NCBI RefSeq assembly: GCF_018866245.1
Contig: NZ_CP076458.1
Coordinates: 3,286,001-3,350,000 of the forward strand
Source of the DNA: Novisyntrophococcus fermenticellae
Lineage (GTDB): Bacteria > Bacillota > Clostridia > Lachnospirales > Lachnospiraceae
DNA: 64,000 nt
Reading direction: 5' to 3'
Shown piece by piece: positions 133 to 10,755 of this stretch (positions within the stretch are counted from its first letter, which is position 1; each line of letters opens with the position of its first letter). The position numbers and the translations under genes were made by a program. The notes beneath the pieces were generated by a model. It had not been told where the DNA came from. It saw nothing but the letters and a program-made list of their open reading frames with translations, and searched no databases.

Positions 133-567
133 TTATATTTCAAATTTATTTAGTTCTGTTTTAATCATCCAATGCATGTGGAACTTATCTTCAAGCATTC
201 CATAATATCTTCCATCTTTAATCTGCGTATAGGGAATATCCACCGCTCCATTCTCACTCAGTAACTCAAAAATTTTTTTTGCTTTTTTAGCATCTTTACA
301 GCTTATGTTTAAAACCATGTTATTGCCCTGAAAAAATCCAAAGGTATCCGGTATATCATAAAATTCAACTGGTGTACCTGCAATGTTCAGACAGGTTCGC
401 ATAACACGCGATTTCATTTTTTCAGGTATCTGATTCACGGAAGAAAGCAGAACCTCCCCTTCTGCATAAGTCAGAAAGGATGGAACTTCCTGTTCGAATA
501 CTTTTGCATAAAATGTTACAGCATCTCGGCAGTTACCATCATAATTAATAGACAGACTAAATGACAT
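133..567 (-). CDS. VOC-superfamily protein (PhnB / glyoxalase-like)
   Basis: A 144-residue protein of the vicinal-oxygen-chelate fold, closest in pattern to PhnB-like proteins: N-terminal SFSLSINYDGNCRDAVTFYAKVF, a central region ending in NMVLNISCKD, and a C-terminal YGMLEDKFHMHWMI segment where metal or substrate would bind. Substrate is unknown. The second of two adjacent ATGs is chosen because AAGGAG lies six bases upstream; this ribosome site is inside the end of the upstream pilin gene. The TGA of the pilin overlaps the first ATG, so the gene is probably translationally coupled to the pilus operon. A longer reading frame runs to 609 but has no better start signal. A cytoplasmic enzyme-like protein is an odd passenger in a pilus operon. 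Confidence 0.8.
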   Translation of the reverse strand: MSFSLSINYDGNCRDAVTFYAKVFEQEVPSFLTYAEGEVLLSSVNQIPEKMKSRVMRTCLNIAGTPVEFYDIPDTFGFFQGNNMVLNISCKDAKKAKKIFELLSENGAVDIPYTQIKDGRYYGMLEDKFHMHWMIKTELNKFEI

Positions 568-1193
568 CATAAACTCCTTCTTATTCTCCATGCGGCCAGC
601 CCGATGCACCCAGACACAAAAAATGCGGCCAGCCAGAGTGAAAAATCTGTTTTATCCCCGGTCTTTGCGGCAGACACCTTTGCAGGAGCAGGTTTTGGCT
701 TCTCAGACACTTTTTTATACTTATTTATAAATTGGATTTTATCTGTCTTCTCCATCGTATTGTTTTGCACGGCCCAGATTTCAGCAGATAAGCTCCCATC
801 TTTACCGTTAACCACGCGCACAGTGACAGTATAAACCGTATCATCATATAGAAGCTCCCCGACACTGCCTGCCTGCTGATAAATCTTATACCTGTAATCT
901 CCCGGCACAGTATAGGTGATTGGTCCAAATTCTTCTTTTCCTGAATTCTTTATTCTTACGTTTGTCTGCCCGGGCAGGGGCGTATCTGTGTCTACAGCTT
1001 CTATATGAATCTGAAATTCAGTATCCATTTTTTTGTTTTCTTCTGATACCGCTGCTTCCATCGGAATAAAAACATCTATAGACTGTTCCTGTGCCTGCAC
1101 CTGCTGTGGGAACAACAGCTGCATTGATAGCAGTGTAAATAGCATTAGCGGAAAAACGTGTATAATTTTCTTATGGAATTCAGATATCCTCAT
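567..1193 (-). CDS. Minor / anchor pilin, FctB-like, with proline-rich tail
   Basis: A 208-residue secreted protein. It has an N-terminal signal segment (MRISEF to about residue 34, hydrophobic core VFPLMLFTLLSMQLLF), one FctA/Spy0128-type isopeptide domain ending in GPITYTVPGDYRYKIYQ and a strand VYTVTVRV, then a proline-rich stretch (EKPKPAPAK), a KTGD sorting motif, a hydrophobic helix and a basic tail. A proline-rich tail before the sorting signal is typical of the cell-wall anchor pilin at the base of streptococcal pili. The start could also be the GTG at 1205, but GGGGG then touches the start codon. ATG at 1193 has the better spacing. It follows the sortase gene by 30 bases and overlaps the VOC gene. 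Confidence 0.78.
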   Translation of the reverse strand: MRISEFHKKIIHVFPLMLFTLLSMQLLFPQQVQAQEQSIDVFIPMEAAVSEENKKMDTEFQIHIEAVDTDTPLPGQTNVRIKNSGKEEFGPITYTVPGDYRYKIYQQAGSVGELLYDDTVYTVTVRVVNGKDGSLSAEIWAVQNNTMEKTDKIQFINKYKKVSEKPKPAPAKVSAAKTGDKTDFSLWLAAFFVSGCIGLAAWRIRRSL

Positions 1194-1223
1194 CTTTTTA
1201 AACACCCCCTTCTGTGCATGCTT

Positions 1224-1976
1224 TTATCTCTTTAGCCATCCAAACACGACAACACGTCCATTTGTTTCCGCTTCGGAACAGGTTGATAATCCAATTAAAG
1301 AATCCCCTGCTTTAACATCTGTTTCCCGGTACTGCACCGCCCCTATCCGAATATACTCTAAAAATTCATTTAAATTTTCTCTGTTCTGTGAATCCGGATA
1401 AAATATCCTGCTGTCAAATGCATCCGTCTTCATACAGGCAAACAAATTAATTGTATAAGTGTCATCAGGCAAATACAGCGTGCCCGTTTTATGTTTTACA
1501 AAATAACTATTGTTTACAAACTTTACAATATCTCCAAACATGGCTCCATTAGCCATATGATGTCCATATACCAGGCTATAGCTGTCGGAAAAATCCGGCT
1601 GATTTCGGCTATCCAGAAAAACTGATCCGGAAAGTGAGAACTCTCCATACACATCTTTATTGATATACTCCATGTCTGTCTTGCCTTGTACAACAGGATA
1701 ATCAATATTTGTATCCTGGATTGTTATCCAGCCACAGACATCGGGATTTATCTTTCGGAGCTCATCCAGTGTCGGATTATTTCCACTGTTATCTGATGGC
1801 TTGAATCTCATAAGCTCATCATCCGCAAAAGCTCCTTTATATACCATAACCGTATCCCAGAGTGAATATCCACCATATAGCAGCAGTAGTAGTATCATAA
1901 CCGCTGCCGCAAAACTCAGCACCTTATTTCCTGCCCGCGCAATCACTGCCGCTGTTTTCAGTCCGATTGTTCTCAC
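1224..1976 (-). CDS. Class B sortase, pilus polymerase
   Basis: A 250-residue transpeptidase anchored by an N-terminal membrane helix (VLSFAAAVMILLLLLYGGYSLW). It carries the class B sortase signature NPDVCGWITIQDTNIDYPVVQG, the catalytic histidine in LVYGHHMANGAMF, the catalytic cysteine in LSTCSEAE and the arginine in NGRVVVFGW. It should cut the pilin sorting motifs (VPPTG, VTPTG, KTGD) in this operon and link pilins through a lysine; Streptococcus pyogenes pili are also built by a class B enzyme. The start is odd: the only in-frame start-like codon is a GTG that touches the GGGAG ribosome site, with a stop just upstream, so a non-ATG start is likely. It lies between backbone and anchor pilin genes. 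Confidence 0.88.
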   Translation of the reverse strand: MRTIGLKTAAVIARAGNKVLSFAAAVMILLLLLYGGYSLWDTVMVYKGAFADDELMRFKPSDNSGNNPTLDELRKINPDVCGWITIQDTNIDYPVVQGKTDMEYINKDVYGEFSLSGSVFLDSRNQPDFSDSYSLVYGHHMANGAMFGDIVKFVNNSYFVKHKTGTLYLPDDTYTINLFACMKTDAFDSRIFYPDSQNRENLNEFLEYIRIGAVQYRETDVKAGDSLIGLSTCSEAETNGRVVVFGWLKR

Positions 1977-2020: not shown

Positions 2021-3088
2021 TTAAAATTCTGAATGTCTTTTTCTTTTAAGAAAGACTGCTGAGAGTATGCCTGCTGCTGCGACCATCAGTACATATGGTG
2101 CAACTGTCATGATAACACCTGTCGGAGTTACAGTATCTTTGGTGTTGGTATATATAACGGCATCGTCTGCTCCCGCCGTAGTACCGGCGGCTGCCAGCTT
2201 ATCCGCACTGTCTGCCCCTGTAATAGCAGTAGTATATCCATCCTTGGAATAATTTGTTTCTTCTACTTTGTAGGTATCCGTTTTTGAAAGACCGAAAATT
2301 TCAGCGGTCTGACCATCTTTCAGCTTAAAAGCAGATGCTGTTCCAGAAGTCAGCGTGTAGTTCTCAGTACCAATAACCATATAATACTGTTCGCCTGCTG
2401 CCCCGTTTATCGTGATATTGAATTCAAACTCTTTATTCTTATCTCCCTGCGTACCTTCAACCTTTTTTGTGACCGTTAGATTATTCAGTGCGTTTGGGTC
2501 AGTCGGGTCAACCGGGTTAGTCGGATCTGTCGGATCCTTTCCGTAGCCATTTTCAAAAACACCGTCATCCTTTTGCTTATCATTTGCCAGATCAGTAAAA
2601 GTATATGCATAAGCATTGCCCTCAGCATCTATATACACATCAAAATGCTTGGTCTCTGTAGAATAGATAATACCTTCATAGCTGCCAGCCTTCTCTGTCA
2701 CATCATAACGATAGATTCCGGGTACCGTAAATTTTGAAGAATCAATGCTGATTTGCGTATTGCCTGCTGTTATAACCCCTTTACTGATGTCGGAAGCAGC
2801 AGGGGCAGATGCAATCTTGCCGGTTTCTCCTGAAAAAGATGCTCCCCCCTCCGGTCCTGCATAGATTGCAGCCTGATTCGAACCAGCTTCTACTGCAGTT
2901 CCGGGTACGATTTCAAATTCAAAAGTCGTATTCGGTGCATATACATTTTCTTCTTTTACGATGTCTTTTGTAATTGTTACACTCTTTACCTCACCACCAT
3001 CTGCATATGCAGTCGTTCCAAATGCAGTAATCACCATGGTTCCTGACATCAGCATTGCTGATAAAAACTTTAAACTTCTTTTTTTCAT
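2021..3088 (-). CDS. Backbone (major) pilin, FctA-like
   Basis: A 355-residue secreted pilin. Signal peptide at 1-29 (hydrophobic core LSAMLMSGTMVITAFGTTAYA); a first FctA/Spy0128-type domain to about residue 185; a PTDPTNPVDPTDP linker near 190-205; a second isopeptide-type domain starting LTVTKKVEGTQGDKNKEFEF, with the matching acidic strand TYKVEETNYS; then a VTPTG sorting motif near residue 320, a hydrophobic helix and KRKRH tail. The paired Lys and Glu strands suggest internal isopeptide bonds. Position three in the operon, directly before the sortase, fits the shaft subunit. The ATG at 3088 follows AGGATAGGG at short distance. Confidence 0.87.
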   Translation of the reverse strand: MKKRSLKFLSAMLMSGTMVITAFGTTAYADGGEVKSVTITKDIVKEENVYAPNTTFEFEIVPGTAVEAGSNQAAIYAGPEGGASFSGETGKIASAPAASDISKGVITAGNTQISIDSSKFTVPGIYRYDVTEKAGSYEGIIYSTETKHFDVYIDAEGNAYAYTFTDLANDKQKDDGVFENGYGKDPTDPTNPVDPTDPNALNNLTVTKKVEGTQGDKNKEFEFNITINGAAGEQYYMVIGTENYTLTSGTASAFKLKDGQTAEIFGLSKTDTYKVEETNYSKDGYTTAITGADSADKLAAAGTTAGADDAVIYTNTKDTVTPTGVIMTVAPYVLMVAAAGILSAVFLKRKRHSEF

Positions 3089-3159: not shown

Positions 3160-3738
3160 CTACAAGTTGGAACGTCGGATTACGGTAATGACTTTCCCCT
3201 TTATTTCACGGGAATCTACAGCTCCAAAATAACGGCTGTCTTTTGCCCCTTCCCTGTAGTCGCATAAAACAAAGTACTGATTTTTCAAAAGCTTTACCGG
3301 ATAGCTAATCCCATCCTCATATCTGGGGGTACGATAGAATATGTTGTTTTCTATCACAACACTGTTATTAACCATTAATTCTGCGTTATCACCGATTTCT
3401 ACAGTGTCTCCTCCCTTTGCAACAATACGGCCGGTATATTGTTTCCCCTCTTTTTCAAATACAATGACATCATCACAGAGCAGATTTTTATCCAGGCGGT
3501 AATACAGTAGCAAATCTCCCGAGCTGATACGCGGTGACATATCATTGTTCTTCATGGGTGTCAGACCGAAAATCATACCAAAAAATATCCAGATTAACGC
3601 TGCCATAAGCATTGCCCGCAGAAGAAAGAACTGTATTTCCTTTTTCATGCCCTTTTGCACTCTTTCATTTTCATTCCCAGTCGGCTCCCGCACGCCTGGC
3701 TCTCCATGTTTTCCCATAGTTATAGGCATTCCTTTCAC
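3160..3738 (-). CDS. SipA-like pseudo-signal peptidase for pilus assembly
   Basis: A signal peptidase I fold protein (192 residues as drawn) with one membrane helix (about 36-60). The box that normally reads S-M-x-P-T reads D66-M-S-P-R, so the catalytic Ser is Asp. The box that normally holds the Lys (K-R-V-V-G-x-P-G-D) reads G103-R-I-V-A-K-G-G-D, so the catalytic Lys is Gly. The later conserved box (NQYFVLCDYREGAKDSRYFG) is kept. Streptococcus pyogenes SipA, needed for pilus polymerisation, carries the same Ser-to-Asp and Lys-to-Gly pair, so a non-enzymatic assembly role is likely. The start is unresolved: GTG 3738, ATG 3729, ATG 3717 and ATG 3648 are all possible. It sits between tip adhesin and backbone pilin, as sipA does in streptococci. 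Confidence 0.88.
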   Translation of the reverse strand: MKGMPITMGKHGEPGVREPTGNENERVQKGMKKEIQFFLLRAMLMAALIWIFFGMIFGLTPMKNNDMSPRISSGDLLLYYRLDKNLLCDDVIVFEKEGKQYTGRIVAKGGDTVEIGDNAELMVNNSVVIENNIFYRTPRYEDGISYPVKLLKNQYFVLCDYREGAKDSRYFGAVDSREIKGKVITVIRRSNL

Positions 3739-3749
3739 ACTGCCAGGCC

Positions 3750-6422
3750 TTAGCCCCTCCGTTTAGGTCTCCCAAGACTCAGCAGCAAAATTCCCAGTGC
3801 AGCAGAAAACATAATAAAGTATGGTTTTATTGTTCTTACAATGCCTGTCGGCGGAACGACCTCTTTTTTATTTGTGAACACCGCACTTGTATCTTCCGTC
3901 AGTGTACCTTCCAATTTCCCATCTGAGAAAACGCCATGATTTGAATAAACGCTTACACTATAGTCCTGGTTCTCCTCGCTTAGCACATAGTTACAGCTAT
4001 AAGGCAAAGTAAGTGCTATTGCTTCATCATCCTTTAAGGTAAATGTATATATACCATCTGCTGCCTGTAAAGTCTCTGTTTTTCCACTTTTTGTATACAT
4101 CAGATTCTGTTCATAAGGCAAGCCGCCATTTTTCAGTGTAAGTTTAAAGGTGAAAGATTTATTCCTGTCTCCCATATTTCCCTCTACCTGCTTTTCAATG
4201 GTGAACACTTGGCAGGCCGGTTTATAGGTGTTCGTAAAAAAGGCGGTGCCCGCCGCATCCTTTGCGATGATTCCGATACTGCCTTCAGAATTGGTGATCA
4301 CATGATACGCATGCCCTGGAAAAATATCAGCGCCCCTCTCGCTTACCTGGTAAGAAGTCCCCGGAGCCAGACCCTCAATTCTGAACTGGTAGCATTGCCT
4401 GTCGTCGTTCCAGGTAAACGCACTGAAATCAGCCGATATTGTTTCCTGATCGTTAAGGCTGTAATCAAATTTTAGATTTTCTGCCAGATAATTTCGTGCC
4501 GCCTCATCGTTTTCCAGTCCTTGAATTTTTTTCTCAATTACCAGAGCTCCTGAATGCAGCTGCATGACCGGTCTTGGATAGGTTTCTGTCTTTGTCTTTC
4601 CTTCATAAGTATACGTGACAGCAGCATCTCCGTTTGTAAATATACCGCCTTTACCTGCAGAGCTTTCTCCCGTTCCCGGATCTCCTGTATCCGGATAGAC
4701 ATTACCATTACTTCGATATGCTTCGTAAGCCGCTTCTGTCGGCTCAATATTGACATTGACCTGATAGGTATAGCCTTCCTTCAGTTGATAAGTATCCGGA
4801 AAATCCAGCACAATCTGTCTTGCATATTCGTCATATCTTGCAGTAATTGCCGCACCATCGAAGTTGACACCCGGTGAACCGGAAGCAATAGTATTTCCAT
4901 TCGAATCTTTTACAGAAACCGTCATCGTCTTTGGCGTCCCATCAATATTCCGTGTTACTTGGACACTGTTGCTTAAGGTATCTGTAATGGTTACATTGCT
5001 GCATAAAATCTTGGTAATAGAAGCCTGGATGTCATCAAATGCTGCCTTCAAAGAAGCCTCATCCGTACCTGCATAGAATTTATTATTGGATGCCGGTATT
5101 AATGTTGCAGCACCATTCAAATCCTTTAAGCGTTCATAATTATTCCTATTTCCTACCCCAACCGTATAAAAGTAATTTGCATTTAGATTTGCAACTTCTC
5201 TCTTTGCCGCATTCATAGATGCCTGATCAAATCCACTACCTTTTCCGGTCGTTTTGCCGCTATTGTCATAATAGAACGACGGATCCCCATCCGAGATGAA
5301 AATAACCGCCGTTAGGGCACCGTCTCTTTTTGTCAGCAACAGGTCTTTTGCTTTCATAATTCCAGCCTGATAATTCGTTCCGCCACCTGAAGCAGGCTTG
5401 GATTTTGTTATGATATTATTCGCATCGGATGTCCAGTCCTGAACTATATTAGCATCATTCCATGCTCCACCATTATAATCTCCACTGAATGACACAAGGG
5501 AATATCTTACATCAAGATCTTCATTTTGGGCTAACGTATTCGTAAAAGTATTGATTGCATTACCGGCAGCCTCTCGTCTTGCCGGATCCCGCCATCCTCC
5601 GATTGATTCATTCATACTTCCTGACTTATCTAAGACATAAATAACATCTAATTTTGATTTTGATGTCTGGCTTCCAACCGCTCCGGCAATTGTTAGTGTC
5701 AGGTCATAAGTGCCATCTTCTTTCTCTGTGACATATTTCTCATGTTTCGCACTCTTTTCTGTATCCTGTATAACGGTCGGTGATATCAGGAATTTCTGCT
5801 CAGTTTTTGCAGGCGCTGACACATCTGAGGCACTGCCGGAAGCTGCGGCCGGCTCGCTGGTATCGGATTTCCACGTTACTGCAAATATCGAAAAGCTGTC
5901 GGCCTTAAATTCGGCTTTTACGGTATCTCCCTCCAAACTTATTGTTCCCGTGGTATTTCCCAGTGCATCCGCTGCTGCCTGTATCGCCCCTCCTTGTTCA
6001 GGACCTAAAAGCTGTTGTACAGACAGTGTCTCCTGCTGAATTTCTTCGGGAAATAAACTGCGGTTTATTCCCAATTTTACCTCGGCAATACCATTTTCCG
6101 GTTCCACCTCATTCCCTGCGGTATCCCAAAATCCGATGTCTATTGCCATAAAATTATCGTATTTTATGCTAGATGCTTTCAATGCATCGGAGATCCTCGC
6201 ATACTCTGCTGACCCTTCCACCTTTTTTACACGCAAAGACACACCCTCCGGCAGTGCCTTGCTTTCCGCATAAGCCTTTACGGAAATCCCTTCCGGCTGT
6301 CCGTTCGAAATATATTCCGCTTTATCCTCTGCCAATGCAACAGTCACATTGCTTCCCACCACAGACAGCATCATAAGCAATATCATTAAAAATGCCAGGG
6401 GCCTTTTTATTCTTTTTTGCAT
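3750..6422 (-). CDS. Pilus tip adhesin with vWA domain
   Basis: An 890-residue surface protein and first gene of the pilus operon. Signal peptide 1-31; an N-terminal beta-rich region to about 190; a von Willebrand A domain about 255-475 with a full metal-binding MIDAS site (DKSGS at 265-269, T349 in SGGGTNYQAG, D378 in FISDGDP); Cna_B/FctA-type beta domains from about 625 to 850; a VPPTG sorting motif at 856-860, a hydrophobic helix and RPKRRG tail. vWA domains at the tip of sortase pili bind host or matrix ligands. The ATG at 6422 has GGGAGAG five bases upstream. The gene starts only 30 bases from the left repeat of the invertible segment, so its transcription should depend on that segment. 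Confidence 0.9.
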   Translation of the reverse strand: MQKRIKRPLAFLMILLMMLSVVGSNVTVALAEDKAEYISNGQPEGISVKAYAESKALPEGVSLRVKKVEGSAEYARISDALKASSIKYDNFMAIDIGFWDTAGNEVEPENGIAEVKLGINRSLFPEEIQQETLSVQQLLGPEQGGAIQAAADALGNTTGTISLEGDTVKAEFKADSFSIFAVTWKSDTSEPAAASGSASDVSAPAKTEQKFLISPTVIQDTEKSAKHEKYVTEKEDGTYDLTLTIAGAVGSQTSKSKLDVIYVLDKSGSMNESIGGWRDPARREAAGNAINTFTNTLAQNEDLDVRYSLVSFSGDYNGGAWNDANIVQDWTSDANNIITKSKPASGGGTNYQAGIMKAKDLLLTKRDGALTAVIFISDGDPSFYYDNSGKTTGKGSGFDQASMNAAKREVANLNANYFYTVGVGNRNNYERLKDLNGAATLIPASNNKFYAGTDEASLKAAFDDIQASITKILCSNVTITDTLSNSVQVTRNIDGTPKTMTVSVKDSNGNTIASGSPGVNFDGAAITARYDEYARQIVLDFPDTYQLKEGYTYQVNVNIEPTEAAYEAYRSNGNVYPDTGDPGTGESSAGKGGIFTNGDAAVTYTYEGKTKTETYPRPVMQLHSGALVIEKKIQGLENDEAARNYLAENLKFDYSLNDQETISADFSAFTWNDDRQCYQFRIEGLAPGTSYQVSERGADIFPGHAYHVITNSEGSIGIIAKDAAGTAFFTNTYKPACQVFTIEKQVEGNMGDRNKSFTFKLTLKNGGLPYEQNLMYTKSGKTETLQAADGIYTFTLKDDEAIALTLPYSCNYVLSEENQDYSVSVYSNHGVFSDGKLEGTLTEDTSAVFTNKKEVVPPTGIVRTIKPYFIMFSAALGILLLSLGRPKRRG

Positions 6423-6451
6423 TTCAGCTCTCCCTTCATCAATTTTCCCAC

Positions 6452-6483
6452 AACCACATAATTCACATTATGTGGTAACAAGC
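6452..6483. repeat. Left inverted repeat (32 bp) of invertible switch
   Basis: This 32-bp stretch is the exact reverse complement of 6716-6747. Inside it is a smaller palindrome at 6453-6476: ten-base arms ACCACATAAT and ATTATGTGGT around TCAC, the form expected for a tyrosine-recombinase crossover site with two bound monomers. Confidence 0.93.
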
Positions 6484-6565
6484 TGTGTAAAATCAATAAT
6501 CTGGTAGATTTTTTAAAAAAATATTTTTTAAAAATGGCTGTATACAAAAAAAGGCAAAAAGAAAT

Positions 6566-6598
6566 AAGGCCGTCTTTCCTCTTTTTTAAAACGGCTTT
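6566..6598 (-). terminator. Possible terminator inside the switch
   Basis: AAGGCCGT pairs with ACGGCTTT (eight pairs, one G-T) around a 17-base loop. On the minus strand it is followed by ATTTCTTTTTGCC. In the written orientation it would stop read-through from the recombinase gene into the pilus genes. In the inverted orientation it lies upstream of the promoter and would not interfere. Confidence 0.4.
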
Positions 6599-6655
6599 GT
6601 TTAGGTGTCTATATTTAAATTATACGGACAAATTTGCTGAAATCAGGAAAAATGA

Positions 6656-6684
6656 TTGACTTGTAAGGGTAGCTATGATAGTAT
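6656..6684 (+). promoter_or_regulatory. Switch promoter, facing away from pilus genes as written
   Basis: TTGACT, 17 bases, then TAGTAT preceded by the extended -10 dinucleotide TG (TGA-TAGTAT). It is the best promoter in the segment and reads rightward into the 3' end of the recombinase gene, as antisense. A weaker leftward pair (TTGATT at 6494-6499, 18 bases, CATAAT within the left repeat) also exists, so the off state is likely but not certain. Confidence 0.55.
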
Positions 6685-6715
6685 ACTATAATAAATAGGT
6701 ATGTATTTATCAGGT

Positions 6716-6747
6716 GCTTGTTACCACATAATGTGAATTATGTGGTT
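6716..6747. repeat. Right inverted repeat (32 bp) of invertible switch
   Basis: Exact reverse complement of 6452-6483, ending nine bases before the stop codon of the recombinase gene. It contains the same inner palindrome (ACCACATAAT, GTGA, ATTATGTGGT). Confidence 0.93.
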
Positions 6748-6755
6748 TTTTCTTT

Positions 6756-7700
6756 TTAAACCACGAGTCCCATCCGATTAATTTCGCGGACGTGCTCCGT
6801 TCCTGTCGAGATAGTGTATACGCGCGTTGTATCAATACTGCTGTGACCAAGAATATCCGCCAGATGCACGATGTTTTTTTCAAGTTCATAAAATATCCGT
6901 GCAAACAAATGTCGCAGATTGTGCGGAAATACTTTTGTCGGCTCCACACCGGCTATTTTACATAACCCCTTCATATCATGCCAGATATTAGAACGATCGA
7001 GTGGCTTTCCGGTCTTTGTACGGAAAATATATCCGGAGCATATGTTTTTTTCCAGGGCATAGCGTACCAGCGCTTTACGGAGCTTATCAGGAAGTAGGAT
7101 TACCCTGTGTTTTCCCTTACAGTTAATATCGGCACGCCCTTTTTGCGCCGCCTCTACTGTAATAAATTCCAGTTCAGAAACGCGGATACCGGTCGCACAG
7201 ATTGTCTCCATTATCATTGCAAGCCGGTAATTTTTTTCTTTTCTGGCAGCATCTACCAATCGACGGTATTCATCTTTCGTCAGTTCTCTTTGCTCATCTC
7301 TGAAAATACAGCGCTGACATTTGATCAAACGCACACGGCAGTTGTTCCATCCCCTATATTCCAGAAAACGATTGATAGCTACAAGCATGGAATTGACGCT
7401 GGATACCGCATACTTTTTCTCCAGATATTCCTTATACTCCATAACCTGCGTCTTACTGATTACTTTCTCTTCATTTACTCCGCCATTGGCAAATCGATAA
7501 AAAGCTAATATATCCCGGATATATTTTTTAATTGTATTTTTGCTTTTTTCCTCTTCTGCCAGCCATATTTTATAATCTTCTATCATTTGTAGATTCATTT
7601 TGTACGTATATTCCACTATTTTTTGCTCCTGTCTGCATTTATTGTAAAGTATATTATTTACAATACCTACGTTATCAATCCCTCCGTTTTCTTTTTTCAT
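6756..7700 (-). CDS. Tyrosine recombinase, putative pilus switch invertase
   Basis: A 314-residue phage-integrase-family recombinase. The N-terminal SAM-like core-binding domain is at about 35-120; the catalytic domain holds R173 (ATGIRVSEL), a Lys in CKGKHRV near 195-197, H260 and R263 (FPHNLRH), H286 (LGHSS) and the nucleophile Y295 (TTRVY). All active-site residues are present. Size and motif spacing fit XerC/D and FimB-type invertases rather than long phage integrases. It ends nine bases from an inverted repeat and is the obvious candidate to invert the segment upstream of the pilus operon. The ATG at 7700 has only a weak ribosome site; ATG at 7598 is an alternative. No other mobile-element genes are nearby. 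Confidence 0.88.
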   Translation of the reverse strand: MKKENGGIDNVGIVNNILYNKCRQEQKIVEYTYKMNLQMIEDYKIWLAEEEKSKNTIKKYIRDILAFYRFANGGVNEEKVISKTQVMEYKEYLEKKYAVSSVNSMLVAINRFLEYRGWNNCRVRLIKCQRCIFRDEQRELTKDEYRRLVDAARKEKNYRLAMIMETICATGIRVSELEFITVEAAQKGRADINCKGKHRVILLPDKLRKALVRYALEKNICSGYIFRTKTGKPLDRSNIWHDMKGLCKIAGVEPTKVFPHNLRHLFARIFYELEKNIVHLADILGHSSIDTTRVYTISTGTEHVREINRMGLVV

Positions 7701-7786
7701 CTTCCATTTATTCCCAGTATTAGTCCAATGATGGTTATTATACTCCTTCTTGAATAAACCGGAAATTTAGATTTTTTATCAAAAGA

Positions 7787-7848
7787 AAATCTTAGCGATT
7801 TGCACACATGAAAGTAAACTTCCCCATATACAAACTGCTAAGATTCAT
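7787..7848 (-). terminator. Terminator of spoVT
   Basis: Two 17-base arms (AATCTTAGC... and ...GCTAAGATT) pair at 14 positions. On the minus strand the stem is followed by TTTTCTTTT. It lies 22 bases after the spoVT stop. Confidence 0.55.
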
Positions 7849-7869
7849 ATAGCTGGTTTTATAATATTA

Positions 7870-8424
7870 CTACTGCTCCATCTGTTTTCCCAAAAACCCT
7901 GCTGCTACCTGTATTAAAACTTTTTCATTTTCTCCCAGTTTTGTTCCGGAATTTTTTCCACGGTCCATTAATATCACGGCACCAATGGCATCGCCAGAGG
8001 ATATGATGGGTACTACAATTTGAGAAATGCTGTTTTTATCATCTTCATCCGTCAATTGTATAAATGCGCTTTCCTTTTGCCCCGCCAGGACTGTTTTGCG
8101 TTCTGAAATTGCATCCTCCAGTTCTTTGCTGATATTTTTTCCTTCAAATTCCTTTTGTCCGGAGCCACTGGCAGTTATAATCTGATCATGATCGGTTACG
8201 CATACAAGATACCCGGTCAGCTGGGATAATACCTGTGCATACTCTTTTGCGAATTTTGCCATTTCACCCATTGGAGAGTATTTCTTTAATACAATTTCTC
8301 CTTCTTTTCCGGTAAAAATCTCCATTGGTTCCCCTTCACGGATTCTCATGGTTCTCCTGATTTCCTTTGGAATTACAATACGCCCCAAATCATCAATACG
8401 TCTGACAACACCTGTAGCTTTCAT
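7870..8424 (-). CDS. spoVT: Stage V sporulation regulator SpoVT
   Basis: A 184-residue AbrB-family transition regulator. Residues 1-50 are the swapped-hairpin DNA-binding domain (MKATGVVRRIDDLGRIVIPKEIRRTMRI). Residues about 55-180 form a GAF-like sensor domain (LTGYLVCVTDHDQIITASGSG, ISQIVVPIISSGDAIGAVILMD). SpoVT acts in the forespore and tunes sigma-G-dependent genes, so the gene points to a spore former. Length equals that of the Bacillus protein. It is a single gene with its own terminator and is not next to the mfd-pth genes it accompanies in some relatives. Confidence 0.93.
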   Translation of the reverse strand: MKATGVVRRIDDLGRIVIPKEIRRTMRIREGEPMEIFTGKEGEIVLKKYSPMGEMAKFAKEYAQVLSQLTGYLVCVTDHDQIITASGSGQKEFEGKNISKELEDAISERKTVLAGQKESAFIQLTDEDDKNSISQIVVPIISSGDAIGAVILMDRGKNSGTKLGENEKVLIQVAAGFLGKQMEQ

Positions 8425-8612
8425 ATATTATGCTCCTTTAATTCAAGTTTTTTCTTTATTACTTCTTTTATCTTCCTGATTCCCTGTTTCGATTCAATTT
8501 GATAGAGCTATTATTTGTAAGATTTGGATGAAATATACACTAAAATGGCAATCCCCCGGAAAACTGTCTGCATACAATTTTTCGGGGAAAGATTTTTTAT
8601 GATTTATACATG

Positions 8613-8651
8613 CAAAAAAAATGTCGACAACCAGACGCCGACATCTTTTTT
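8613..8651 (-). terminator. Terminator between spoVT promoter region and M15 gene
   Basis: ATGTCG pairs with CGACAT around an 11-base loop, with A-run on the left and T-run on the right, so it can act in both directions. It overlaps the stop codon of the M15 peptidase gene. The rest of 8425-8612 is the spoVT upstream region, in which I see no clear site. Confidence 0.5.
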
Positions 8652-9213
8652 ATATCTGATAATATTCCTCCAACGTCAGACCTGTAAGTGCAAGATACAG
8701 GGACAATGATTTTCCCACATAGCGTATATGCCATGGTTCGTAAGCGTAGCCTGTAATTTTCTCTTTTCCCTTGGGATATCTGAGAATAAATCCAAACATG
8801 GGTGCATAAACCGCAAGCCACTTTCCTTCCGGAGTCTCACCAAACTCCTCTTCCAGTTCATAATCCATTCCCGGCGATGAGACGTCCAGTGCCAGACCGG
8901 TCTGATGCTCGCTGGTCCCCGGCCGGGCCACGTACTGGTTCACTTCTTCAGCAGGAGATTCCTGCAGACGCTGCTGGTAAATTTGATTCTGCCGTTCAAA
9001 GGACCTATATCCGGATACCCCATACAGCAGATGACCAAAAGACTTTCCATATTCCAAAAGCCTTCCCGCTGCTTCGGCAGCCGCCTCGCAGAGCAGCCGC
9101 TTCTCTTCAAGCCTTTCCGCACAAAACGGAAATTCGCAGACAACCAGGCCATGCGGAATATAAGTGGCATCCAGCGGATGCTGTCGATTGACCAGACATG
9201 TATAATTCTGCAT
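8650..9213 (-). CDS. M15-family D-Ala-D-Ala carboxypeptidase (VanY-like)
   Basis: A 187-residue zinc peptidase of the VanY/DdcP type that trims the last D-alanine of peptidoglycan stem peptides. Visible motifs are GYRSFERQNQIYQQRL, the zinc motif SEHQTGLALDV (His and Asp ligands) and EPWHIRYVGK with the third ligand. The start at 9213 has GGGAGGGG six bases upstream; a longer frame to 9243 lacks a better site. I see no signal peptide or membrane helix at the N-terminus (MQNYTCLVNRQHPLD), which is unusual for an enzyme acting outside the membrane. It follows pncB by 72 bases in the same direction and may share its transcript. Confidence 0.85.
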   Translation of the reverse strand: MQNYTCLVNRQHPLDATYIPHGLVVCEFPFCAERLEEKRLLCEAAAEAAGRLLEYGKSFGHLLYGVSGYRSFERQNQIYQQRLQESPAEEVNQYVARPGTSEHQTGLALDVSSPGMDYELEEEFGETPEGKWLAVYAPMFGFILRYPKGKEKITGYAYEPWHIRYVGKSLSLYLALTGLTLEEYYQI

Positions 9214-9285: not shown

Positions 9286-10755
9286 TTACTGATTTTCAAG
9301 AGCCTTCATGCTCATCTCTTCTAACAAATCCGTCTTAATCTTGTAAAGATTATCTGACAAATCCACATAGACAGTCTGTGGATTGACAAGACGTCTGGAT
9401 TCATCCCAGAGAGTCTCCTTCTCCCGGGTGCAGATATCCCGGATCTCCATTACCGATGGAGACGTATAGACACAGTTTCCCTTTTGAAATACAGGAAGCA
9501 GCAACTCTCTTAAGCGGTAAGTTCCGCCTTTCAATCTGGTTTTCTTCCATGTCTCAATAGGGTCAAACAAGATCATATCTTCCGATTCATCAAACTGCTC
9601 CCCTGCCAGGCAGATTAAATCTGCTCTGATTTTTCCGCTTTCAGTATCATAGATGCGGAAAATTGTCTTATCACAAGGATTGGTGACTTTCTCCGTATTT
9701 TCGGATAATTTAATTTTCGGGGTAAATTCATCCTCCCATGCGTTCTTAATCGCAGCAAGTTTATAGACACCGCCGAATGCAGGCCAGTCACCTGAGGTAA
9801 TCAGATTCGTACCAACTCCCCAGGAATTAATCTTTGCACCCTGTGTCTTCATACTGTCAATCAGATACTCATCCAGATCACTGGAGGCCGATATGATTGC
9901 ATCTTCAAATCCCTCTGCTGCCAGCATCTCGTACGCCTTTTTCGAGAGATATGCCAGATCACCGCTGTCAATACGAATCCCATAACCCTTCATCTCCATG
10001 CCTGCATCCCGCATCTCAGAGAAGACACGGATGGCATTCGGTATTCCGGATTCCAGAACATCATACGTATCCACAAGCAGGATACATGCCTTCGGATACA
10101 GTTCGGCATAAGTCTTAAACGCAGTGTATTCATCGGGAAAGCTCATAATCCAGCTATGTGCATGGGTTCCCTTCACCGGTACATCGAACATCTGTCCGGT
10201 CAGTACATTAGAGGTTCCGATGCATCCCCCAATCATGGCTGCCCTTGCACCGTAGATACCCGCATCCGGTCCCTGCGCCCGGCGGAGCCCGAATTCCATA
10301 ACGCCGTCACCTTGCGCTGCATAACAGACCCTTGATGCCTTAGTGGCAATCAGACACTGGTGATTGATAATATTCAGCAGCGCAGTCTCTACCAGCTGTG
10401 CCTCCATCACAGGAGCAATTACTTTAATCAGTGGTTCTCTGGGAAATATCACCGTTCCCTCAGGAATCGCATAGATATCACCGGTAAAATGAAGCCCTCT
10501 CAGATATTCCAGGAAATCCTCATCAAACATCTTAAGCTCCCGCAGGTAATCAATATCATCCGGGGAAAAATGAAGATTACGGACATACTCAATCACCTGC
10601 TCCAGGCCTGCCATAATCGCATAGGCACCATCACTGGGATTCTTCCTGTAAAACGCATCAAAAACAACAATCTGACTGGTAGGATTCTTGTAGTAACCCT
10701 GCATCATTGTCAGTTCGTATAAGTCTGTCAATAAGGTTAAATTCAGCGCTCTCAT
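9286..10755 (-). CDS. pncB: Nicotinate phosphoribosyltransferase
   Basis: A 489-residue enzyme that makes nicotinate mononucleotide from nicotinate and PRPP in NAD salvage. Family marks are NLTLLTDLYELTMMQGYYKN at the N-terminus, a central EFGLRRAQGPD with the conserved active-site histidine region (VPVKGTHAHSWIMSF), the phosphate-binding SSDLDEYLI and GVGTNLITSGD. The start at 10755 has GGAGG four bases upstream; the frame extends to 10839 without a good site. It is the long form common in Firmicutes. Confidence 0.95.
   Translation of the reverse strand: MRALNLTLLTDLYELTMMQGYYKNPTSQIVVFDAFYRKNPSDGAYAIMAGLEQVIEYVRNLHFSPDDIDYLRELKMFDEDFLEYLRGLHFTGDIYAIPEGTVIFPREPLIKVIAPVMEAQLVETALLNIINHQCLIATKASRVCYAAQGDGVMEFGLRRAQGPDAGIYGARAAMIGGCIGTSNVLTGQMFDVPVKGTHAHSWIMSFPDEYTAFKTYAELYPKACILLVDTYDVLESGIPNAIRVFSEMRDAGMEMKGYGIRIDSGDLAYLSKKAYEMLAAEGFEDAIISASSDLDEYLIDSMKTQGAKINSWGVGTNLITSGDWPAFGGVYKLAAIKNAWEDEFTPKIKLSENTEKVTNPCDKTIFRIYDTESGKIRADLICLAGEQFDESEDMILFDPIETWKKTRLKGGTYRLRELLLPVFQKGNCVYTSPSVMEIRDICTREKETLWDESRRLVNPQTVYVDLSDNLYKIKTDLLEEMSMKALENQ

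Follow-up and report, generated by a model that had tools for sequence, protein, structure and literature searches.

A predicted invertible-promoter switch upstream of a sortase-B pilus operon, and its relatives with dif-like sites across the class Clostridia

The window analyzed here is the whole 64,000-nucleotide stretch of Novisyntrophococcus fermenticellae contig NZ_CP076458.1 (positions 3,286,001 to 3,350,000), from a bacterium whose family is associated with the gut. Near its beginning, the minus strand carries an operon of five genes encoding a von Willebrand factor A (VWA) tip protein, a signal peptidase I, an FctA-type backbone pilin, a class B sortase, and an FctA-type minor pilin (Table 1). 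All five genes are intact ORFs, the sortase and the signal peptidase score above the cut-offs of their models, and the set has the composition of an FCT-like sortase-B operon, which we take to resemble the streptococcal FCT region. The sortase pilus operon named in the initial annotation is therefore real, with its tip, peptidase, backbone, sortase, and minor pilin each identified by domain models.

Upstream of the tip gene are two inverted repeats of 32 nt each, 100% complementary and 232 nt apart, as had been annotated. The pair occurs only once in the 3.42-Mb genome, and its repeat score of 32 compares with a best score of 11 in same-length mononucleotide shuffles (83 comparable regions). 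The operon-side repeat ends 29 bp before the ATG of the tip gene, with the ribosome-binding site AAGGGAGAG in between, which agrees with the earlier placement of the repeats just upstream of the adhesin gene. On the other side, the distance from the repeat to the stop of a tyrosine recombinase gene (6756) is eight bases (6748-6755) and not nine as first stated. Both arms contain the hexamer TTCACA as the putative crossover region, and each site is dif-like in consisting of two half-sites round this central hexamer. No structured RNA of a known family was found in positions 5900-8700 of the window. An imperfect 28-nt inverted repeat at 7788-7845, with the recombinase gene on one side and a spoVT-like gene on the other, is probably a shared terminator.

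Table 1. Features of the pilus operon, the repeat-bounded segment, and the recombinase gene in the window.
Feature	Coordinates	Strand	Basis or remarks
Minor or base pilin (FctA-type)	567..1205	-	Domain matches
Class B pilus sortase	1224..1976	-	201.6 bits, cut-off 153.75
Pilus backbone: FctA, DUF7601, QVPTGV-class sortase B signal	2021..3088	-	Domain matches
Signal peptidase I	3160..3738	-	92.7 bits, cut-off 47
Tip adhesin: VWA, DUF7604, DUF7601; VPPTG sorting-type motif	3750..6422	-	ORF, domains
Ribosome-binding site of tip gene	6428..6436	-	Sequence
Operon-side inverted repeat, putative recombination site	6452..6483		Core CATAA-TTCACA-TTATG at 6457-6472
Putative invertible segment, 232 bp between arms	6484..6715		Inversion suggested by relatives
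Terminator-like hairpin within the segment (predicted)	6566..6598		Scored 10.5 in operon direction
Sigma-A-like promoter TTGACT-17-TAGTAT, extended -10 (TG)	6656..6684	+	Consensus match; towards recombinase
Recombinase-side inverted repeat, putative recombination site	6716..6747		Same core, minus strand, 6742-6727
Recombinase-side site as terminator-like hairpin	6723..6756	+	Read-out direction of OFF promoter; termination predicted
Tyrosine recombinase, 314 aa, Xer-like (core-binding and catalytic domains)	6756..7700	-	ORF, Pfam/NCBIfam, alignment, PDB matches

The recombinase gene is complete, as previously described, with an intact ORF and with R173, K197, H260, R263, H286, and Y295 unchanged across an alignment of eight recombinases (all of these but K197 had been listed in the initial annotation). 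Its product matches Pfam Phage_integrase (4.6e-26) together with an N-terminal SAM-like domain. The top NCBIfam matches are XerA, XerD, and XerC, each under its curated cut-off (137.6 bits against 220, 121.6 against 329.6, and 102.9 against 335.15, respectively), and the closest solved structures in the PDB are XerC-like, XerA, and XerD proteins. Membership in the FimB/FimE group was rejected, as the protein reaches only 22.8 bits against the NCBIfam tyrosine-type DNA invertase model PRK09870 (FimB/FimE-type), whose cut-off is 221.

The segment between the repeats holds the good promoter claimed earlier, a consensus match with a TG extension scoring 11.8 bits against 8.6 for the best opposite-strand site and 7.4 for the shuffle mean, by an approximate matrix; by count alone, promoter-like sites are not enriched in positions 5500-8000 (10 found vs. 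7.3 +/- 2.8 in shuffles). Both promoter and terminator calls are consensus-based. This promoter is directed away from the pilus operon, so that the assembly is predicted to show the pilus OFF state; neither the promoter direction nor the predicted state had been given in the initial annotation. Because only 29 bp lie between the repeat and the ATG, transcription of the operon must start in, or cross, the segment. In the direction in which the OFF promoter would read out, the recombinase-side site is predicted to form a hairpin with a 10-bp stem (-11.7 kcal/mol) followed by TTTTTCTTTT.

To place this arrangement among its relatives, we searched 397 genomes of the window's family with a profile of eight recombinases (E <= 1e-50, at most six candidates scored per genome), and found relatives in at least 86 of them (at least 150 matches). 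A first set of 88 loci was made up of 80 of the 150 matches, mostly the best-scoring, seven further loci, and the window; five had too little downstream sequence, which left 83. A repeat pair scoring at least 14 and starting no more than about 120 nt from the recombinase stop was present in 76 of the 83 loci, compared to none in 83 mononucleotide shuffles. L024, counted among the seven misses, has repeats that were overlooked because its reading frame is interrupted. A class-level search gave 101 matches in 65 of 391 genomes; the window's own genome and one member of its family were covered by both searches. The second set was taken from 80 of these 101 matches, none from the window's family; four were too short and 76 were examined. 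The window switch belongs to a large cassette family. Relatives of the recombinase are also found on 16 IMG/VR contigs (44-62% over the aligned stretch), and at least two dif-like sites at >=9/10 are present in seven of the 12 contigs having any downstream sequence. The cassette may thus travel on mobile elements. Some of the IMG/VR loci with a recombinase and dif-like pairs (L143-L158, classed as viral) lie beside resolvase, ParB-like, or methylase-like genes.

Recombination sites were anchored on CATAA-N6-TTATG with the centre ignored, and both sites of a pair were required at >=8/10. In the first set, both sites were found in 70 of the 83 loci (13 dropped), and the central hexamer is identical between the arms in 68/70 in inverted register and in 0/70 in direct register, the two exceptions (L124 and L135) having poor right-hand sites. 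The second set gave the same picture, with both sites in 65 of 76 loci, identical hexamers in 62 of the 65, and none in direct register. The loci without a recognizable site pair (13/83 and 11/76 respectively) include some with variant cores. Hexamers match in 18 of 2366 pairs of first-set loci from different genomes, against 2 of 34 within-genome pairs (hand count), and avoidance of shared hexamers within one genome is not borne out. The first set has 52 distinct centres and no palindromic one, compared to about 4.1 expected from column frequencies, and none of the 62 in the second is palindromic, compared to 3.3; over both sets, there are 0/130 palindromic centres vs. 7.7 expected (Poisson 4.6e-4), or 0/85 distinct centres vs. 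5.0 (0.007). Crossover by tyrosine recombinases such as Cre, FLP, and Xer needs identical centres, and a palindromic centre would abolish directionality. A hexamer that is identical between arms, variable between loci, and non-palindromic is as would be expected of a strand-exchange region. L080 has three tandem site copies (89 nt) in its recombinase-side arm. The variant core CAGAA-N6-TTCTG, found in L135, L167, L281, and L282, suggests that there are subgroups of the recombinase whose specificity has shifted.

Both orientations are found among related segments. In the orthologous Blautia MAG loci L020 and L022, the flanks are collinear at 90% and 82%, and the segment aligns inverted only, at 84%; the promoter points towards the operon in L022 and away from it in L020. 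When the two sets are taken together, 64 pairs of segments can be aligned at E <= 1e-10. Promoters were called for 61 of these pairs, and promoter direction agrees with sequence orientation in all 61 (39 same, 22 inverted). The recombinase gene is collinear in 22/22 inverted pairs, which share members and are not independent, and the downstream flank, alignable in only seven of the 22, is collinear in all seven. The window segment itself aligns weakly, and in the same orientation, with that of the same-genus locus L015. The inversion switch proposed at the outset is therefore supported both by the arm-identical, locus-variable hexamers and by the related segments lying in either orientation beside a collinear recombinase. 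Among the 76 orientation calls in the first set, 53 are OFF, 11 ON, and 12 ambiguous; the 62 in the second set comprise 38 OFF, 21 ON, and 3 ambiguous (p 0.036). The first set thus has a real excess of OFF and the second a modest one, and assemblies show the majority state only.

The terminator-like property of the recombinase-side site is also found beyond the window. In the outward direction from the segment, a tract of at least five T in eight follows the site hairpin on the recombinase side in 39/68 first-set loci and on the operon side in 6/68 (Fisher 1.4e-9). The corresponding counts are 39/62 and 7/62 in the second set, and 78/130 and 13/130 in both sets together. As a control, only 21% of 648 stretches after other stop codons reach this T-tract level, compared to 26 of the 35 sites lying wholly past the stop, so A-rich sequence after stop codons is insufficient as an explanation. 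The recombinase-side site is thus predicted often to double as a terminator-like hairpin, although, as the site hairpins average only -6.9 in energy across the loci (range -12.8 to 0.0), this role will not hold at every locus. Within the segments, terminator-like sites are more numerous than expected on either strand (27 and 24, compared to an expectation of about 5 for each). Their orientation shows no consistent relation to that of the promoter, and a promoter-terminator opposition is unsupported.

With all of this, we consider it very probable that the window contains an invertible-promoter phase switch for the sortase-B pilus. In this mechanism, the adjacent tyrosine recombinase would bind the two dif-like sites, one in each inverted repeat, and strand exchange within the identical 6-bp centre TTCACA would flip the 232-bp segment. 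In the OFF state, the promoter would fire at the recombinase gene, with the transcript likely stopped at the recombinase-side repeat by the hairpin and T-tract. In the ON state, inversion would have brought the promoter close to the operon-side repeat, from where it would transcribe the tip gene. By arithmetic, inversion would put the -10 box at 6520-6515 on the minus strand and the transcription start at about 6508, some 86 nt ahead of the ATG.

The anatomy could also have been inherited by a decayed or locked switch that no longer flips in this strain, the recombinase being silent or inactive and the pilus permanently OFF. The single orientation in the assembly of the window genome and the family-wide dominance of OFF calls would fit such a state; however, the recombinase ORF is intact with all catalytic residues present, the arms are perfect over 32 bp, and the ORFs from tip to minor pilin are intact, and we regard a locked switch as very unlikely. 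The repeats might instead be non-recombining transcription terminators or regulator-binding palindromes next to a recombinase left by an unrelated mobile element, given that each arm forms a hairpin, the recombinase-side one with a T-tract, and that recombinase relatives occur on IMG/VR contigs. Neither role needs an identical asymmetric hexamer in both arms, as seen in 68/70 and 62/65 loci, or would account for segments found inverted among relatives; simple terminator or operator palindromes were rejected on these two grounds, and the probability of this explanation as a whole is close to negligible.

Because the sites are dif-like, we also considered that the switch flips chiefly by the host chromosomal XerC/XerD instead of the product of the adjacent gene. 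The sites share the plan of dif, with an 11-mer, a central hexamer, and an 11-mer, and the core CATAA-N6-TTATG matches many of the proteobacterial dif sites listed in PMC2731167. However, here two inverted sites lie about 270 bp apart, the two half-sites resemble each other, which fits a single enzyme better than a pair, and a single dedicated recombinase, far below the XerC/XerD cut-offs, adjoins the sites in essentially every sampled locus (partly by construction, as loci were found via the recombinase). A search for the host chromosomal dif with two patterns gave one poor match with one and none with the other. Flipping mainly by XerC/XerD appears highly improbable to us, and a switch operated by its own recombinase remains the preferred reading.

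A recombinase, repeats, and a tip/peptidase/backbone/sortase-B gene set are joined at six loci in six genera, of which L131 is predicted ON, and the window, L083, L132, L059, and L167 are predicted OFF. Sortase similarity to the window is 63% in L131, 58% in L083, 39% in L132, and 37% in L059. The window recombinase is closest to that of L075 (55%) and not to the pilus-linked recombinases, which suggests that switch and target may reassort. Most sortase-B pili are without this switch. A sortase-B profile gave 69 matches in 61 of the 397 genomes of the family, and among 15 sortase-B loci with their surroundings, the cassette stands beside the operon in one (L167) and is absent from 13, while in L178 it lies about 14 kb upstream with other genes between. 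With the cassette absent from 13 of the 14 other loci and remote in L178, this pilus type can evidently do without it. For G168, the coordinates place the recombinase about 12 kb from the sortase. The first downstream genes at 66 loci most commonly have polysaccharide-synthesis, surface-protein, or signal-peptidase Pfam domains, each in 2-5 members only, and also include unrelated functions.

Several other arrangements were seen near such targets. Two sortase-B pilus operons, L171 and L180, are preceded by a divergent tyrosine recombinase that matches the profile at E about 1e-8 and lies some 330 bp upstream from the tip gene. Neither has dif-like pairs, and the two may represent a second type of switch. 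The sortase-B cluster of L179 has a lone dif-like site with the window hexamer (TGTGAA/TTCACA), which lies at 8853 in the oriented locus and some 260 nt upstream from a large gene; no family recombinase was found nearby. L174 carries within its sortase-B cluster a 28-bp inverted repeat pair of different sequence, 154 nt apart (9311-9521 of the oriented locus). In the polysaccharide or adhesin loci L019, L020, L022, and L024, a gene with EDLTGRRFGRLTV/CRCDCG repeats lies within the switched region or close to it. That of L022 has a weak AP2 match (E 4e-4, below cut-off), and the gene may possibly encode a switched regulator.

The present cassette family is probably the same as the group 139 invertons (invertase group 35) of Jin et al. 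(2025; PMC11892184), in which, as here, a tyrosine recombinase stands beside nearly every inverton and segment lengths are similar (about 200-230 bp between arms in the example given). According to that paper, 32 of the 33 group 139 invertons are from the class Clostridia, and flipping is evidenced by reads, orientation shifts being described for Clostridium sp. D5 and Intestinimonas; searching its main text gave no mention of sortase, pilus, or pili. The nearest Gram-positive case is SZO08560 of Streptococcus zooepidemicus, where an invertible promoter lies between the adjacent recombinase SZO08550 and an LPXTG surface-protein gene (PMC2654543). Five reads in the reverse orientation are reported there, and the reverse transcript enters the recombinase strand; its repeats are, however, the 10-bp GTAGACTTTA, which is not dif-like, and the target is one surface protein and no pilus operon (PMC2654543).

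The initial annotation had compared the layout to FimB/FimE- and RecV-type switches, and the likeness of layout holds, while FimB/FimE membership (above) and RecV-type sites do not. E. coli fimS, as described, is likewise an invertible promoter for a pilus with the recombinases FimB and FimE nearby, but the pilus there is of the chaperone-usher type, and the window recombinase fails the invertase model and has an N-terminal core-binding domain. The cwpV and flagellar switches of C. difficile share with the window the clostridial host, a tyrosine recombinase (RecV), and a short segment, and intrinsic termination has been proposed for cwpV; by these accounts, recV is not close to cwpV, whose promoter lies outside the segment (PMC2784873, PMC5386303). 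RecV-type sites were rejected for the window, as the flagellar-switch repeats AAGTT(A/G)CTAT(A/T)TTACAAAAAA (PMC5386303) are not dif-like and differ by eye from its core. Phase-variable sortase-dependent pili are also described in the gut commensal Bifidobacterium breve, but are switched by replication slippage and not by inversion (PMC9187656). In searches of the open-licence PMC literature, we found no report of a clostridial sortase pilus governed by an invertible promoter.

A broader reading, on which we are evenly divided, is that a Xer-derived lineage has spread through the class Clostridia as a plug-in phase-switch cassette. In such a cassette, the palindromic arms of a dif-like site would serve for enzyme binding, a non-palindromic crossover hexamer private to the switch would ensure that the segment is inverted and not lost, and an intrinsic terminator at the recombinase-side site would halt the OFF promoter before antisense entry into the recombinase gene; in the window, the cassette would have captured a sortase-B pilus operon. 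What is new about the window switch itself is the combination of dif-like sites with pair-private hexamers, a dedicated Xer-like enzyme, and a putative terminator borne by the site. The switch and its family predict phase variation by DNA inversion for the sortase-B pilus of a Lachnospiraceae-type bacterium. They also predict that polysaccharide, adhesin, and other loci across the class are switched in this way by a dedicated recombinase that has a recognizable site. Simple, testable design rules are offered by the lack of palindromic hexamers and by the terminator role predicted for the recombinase-side site. With the site rule of CATAA-N6-TTATG beside the recombinase stop, it should be possible to locate such switches in any genome or metagenome and to read their orientation off assemblies, so that colonization studies could score ON and OFF states directly.
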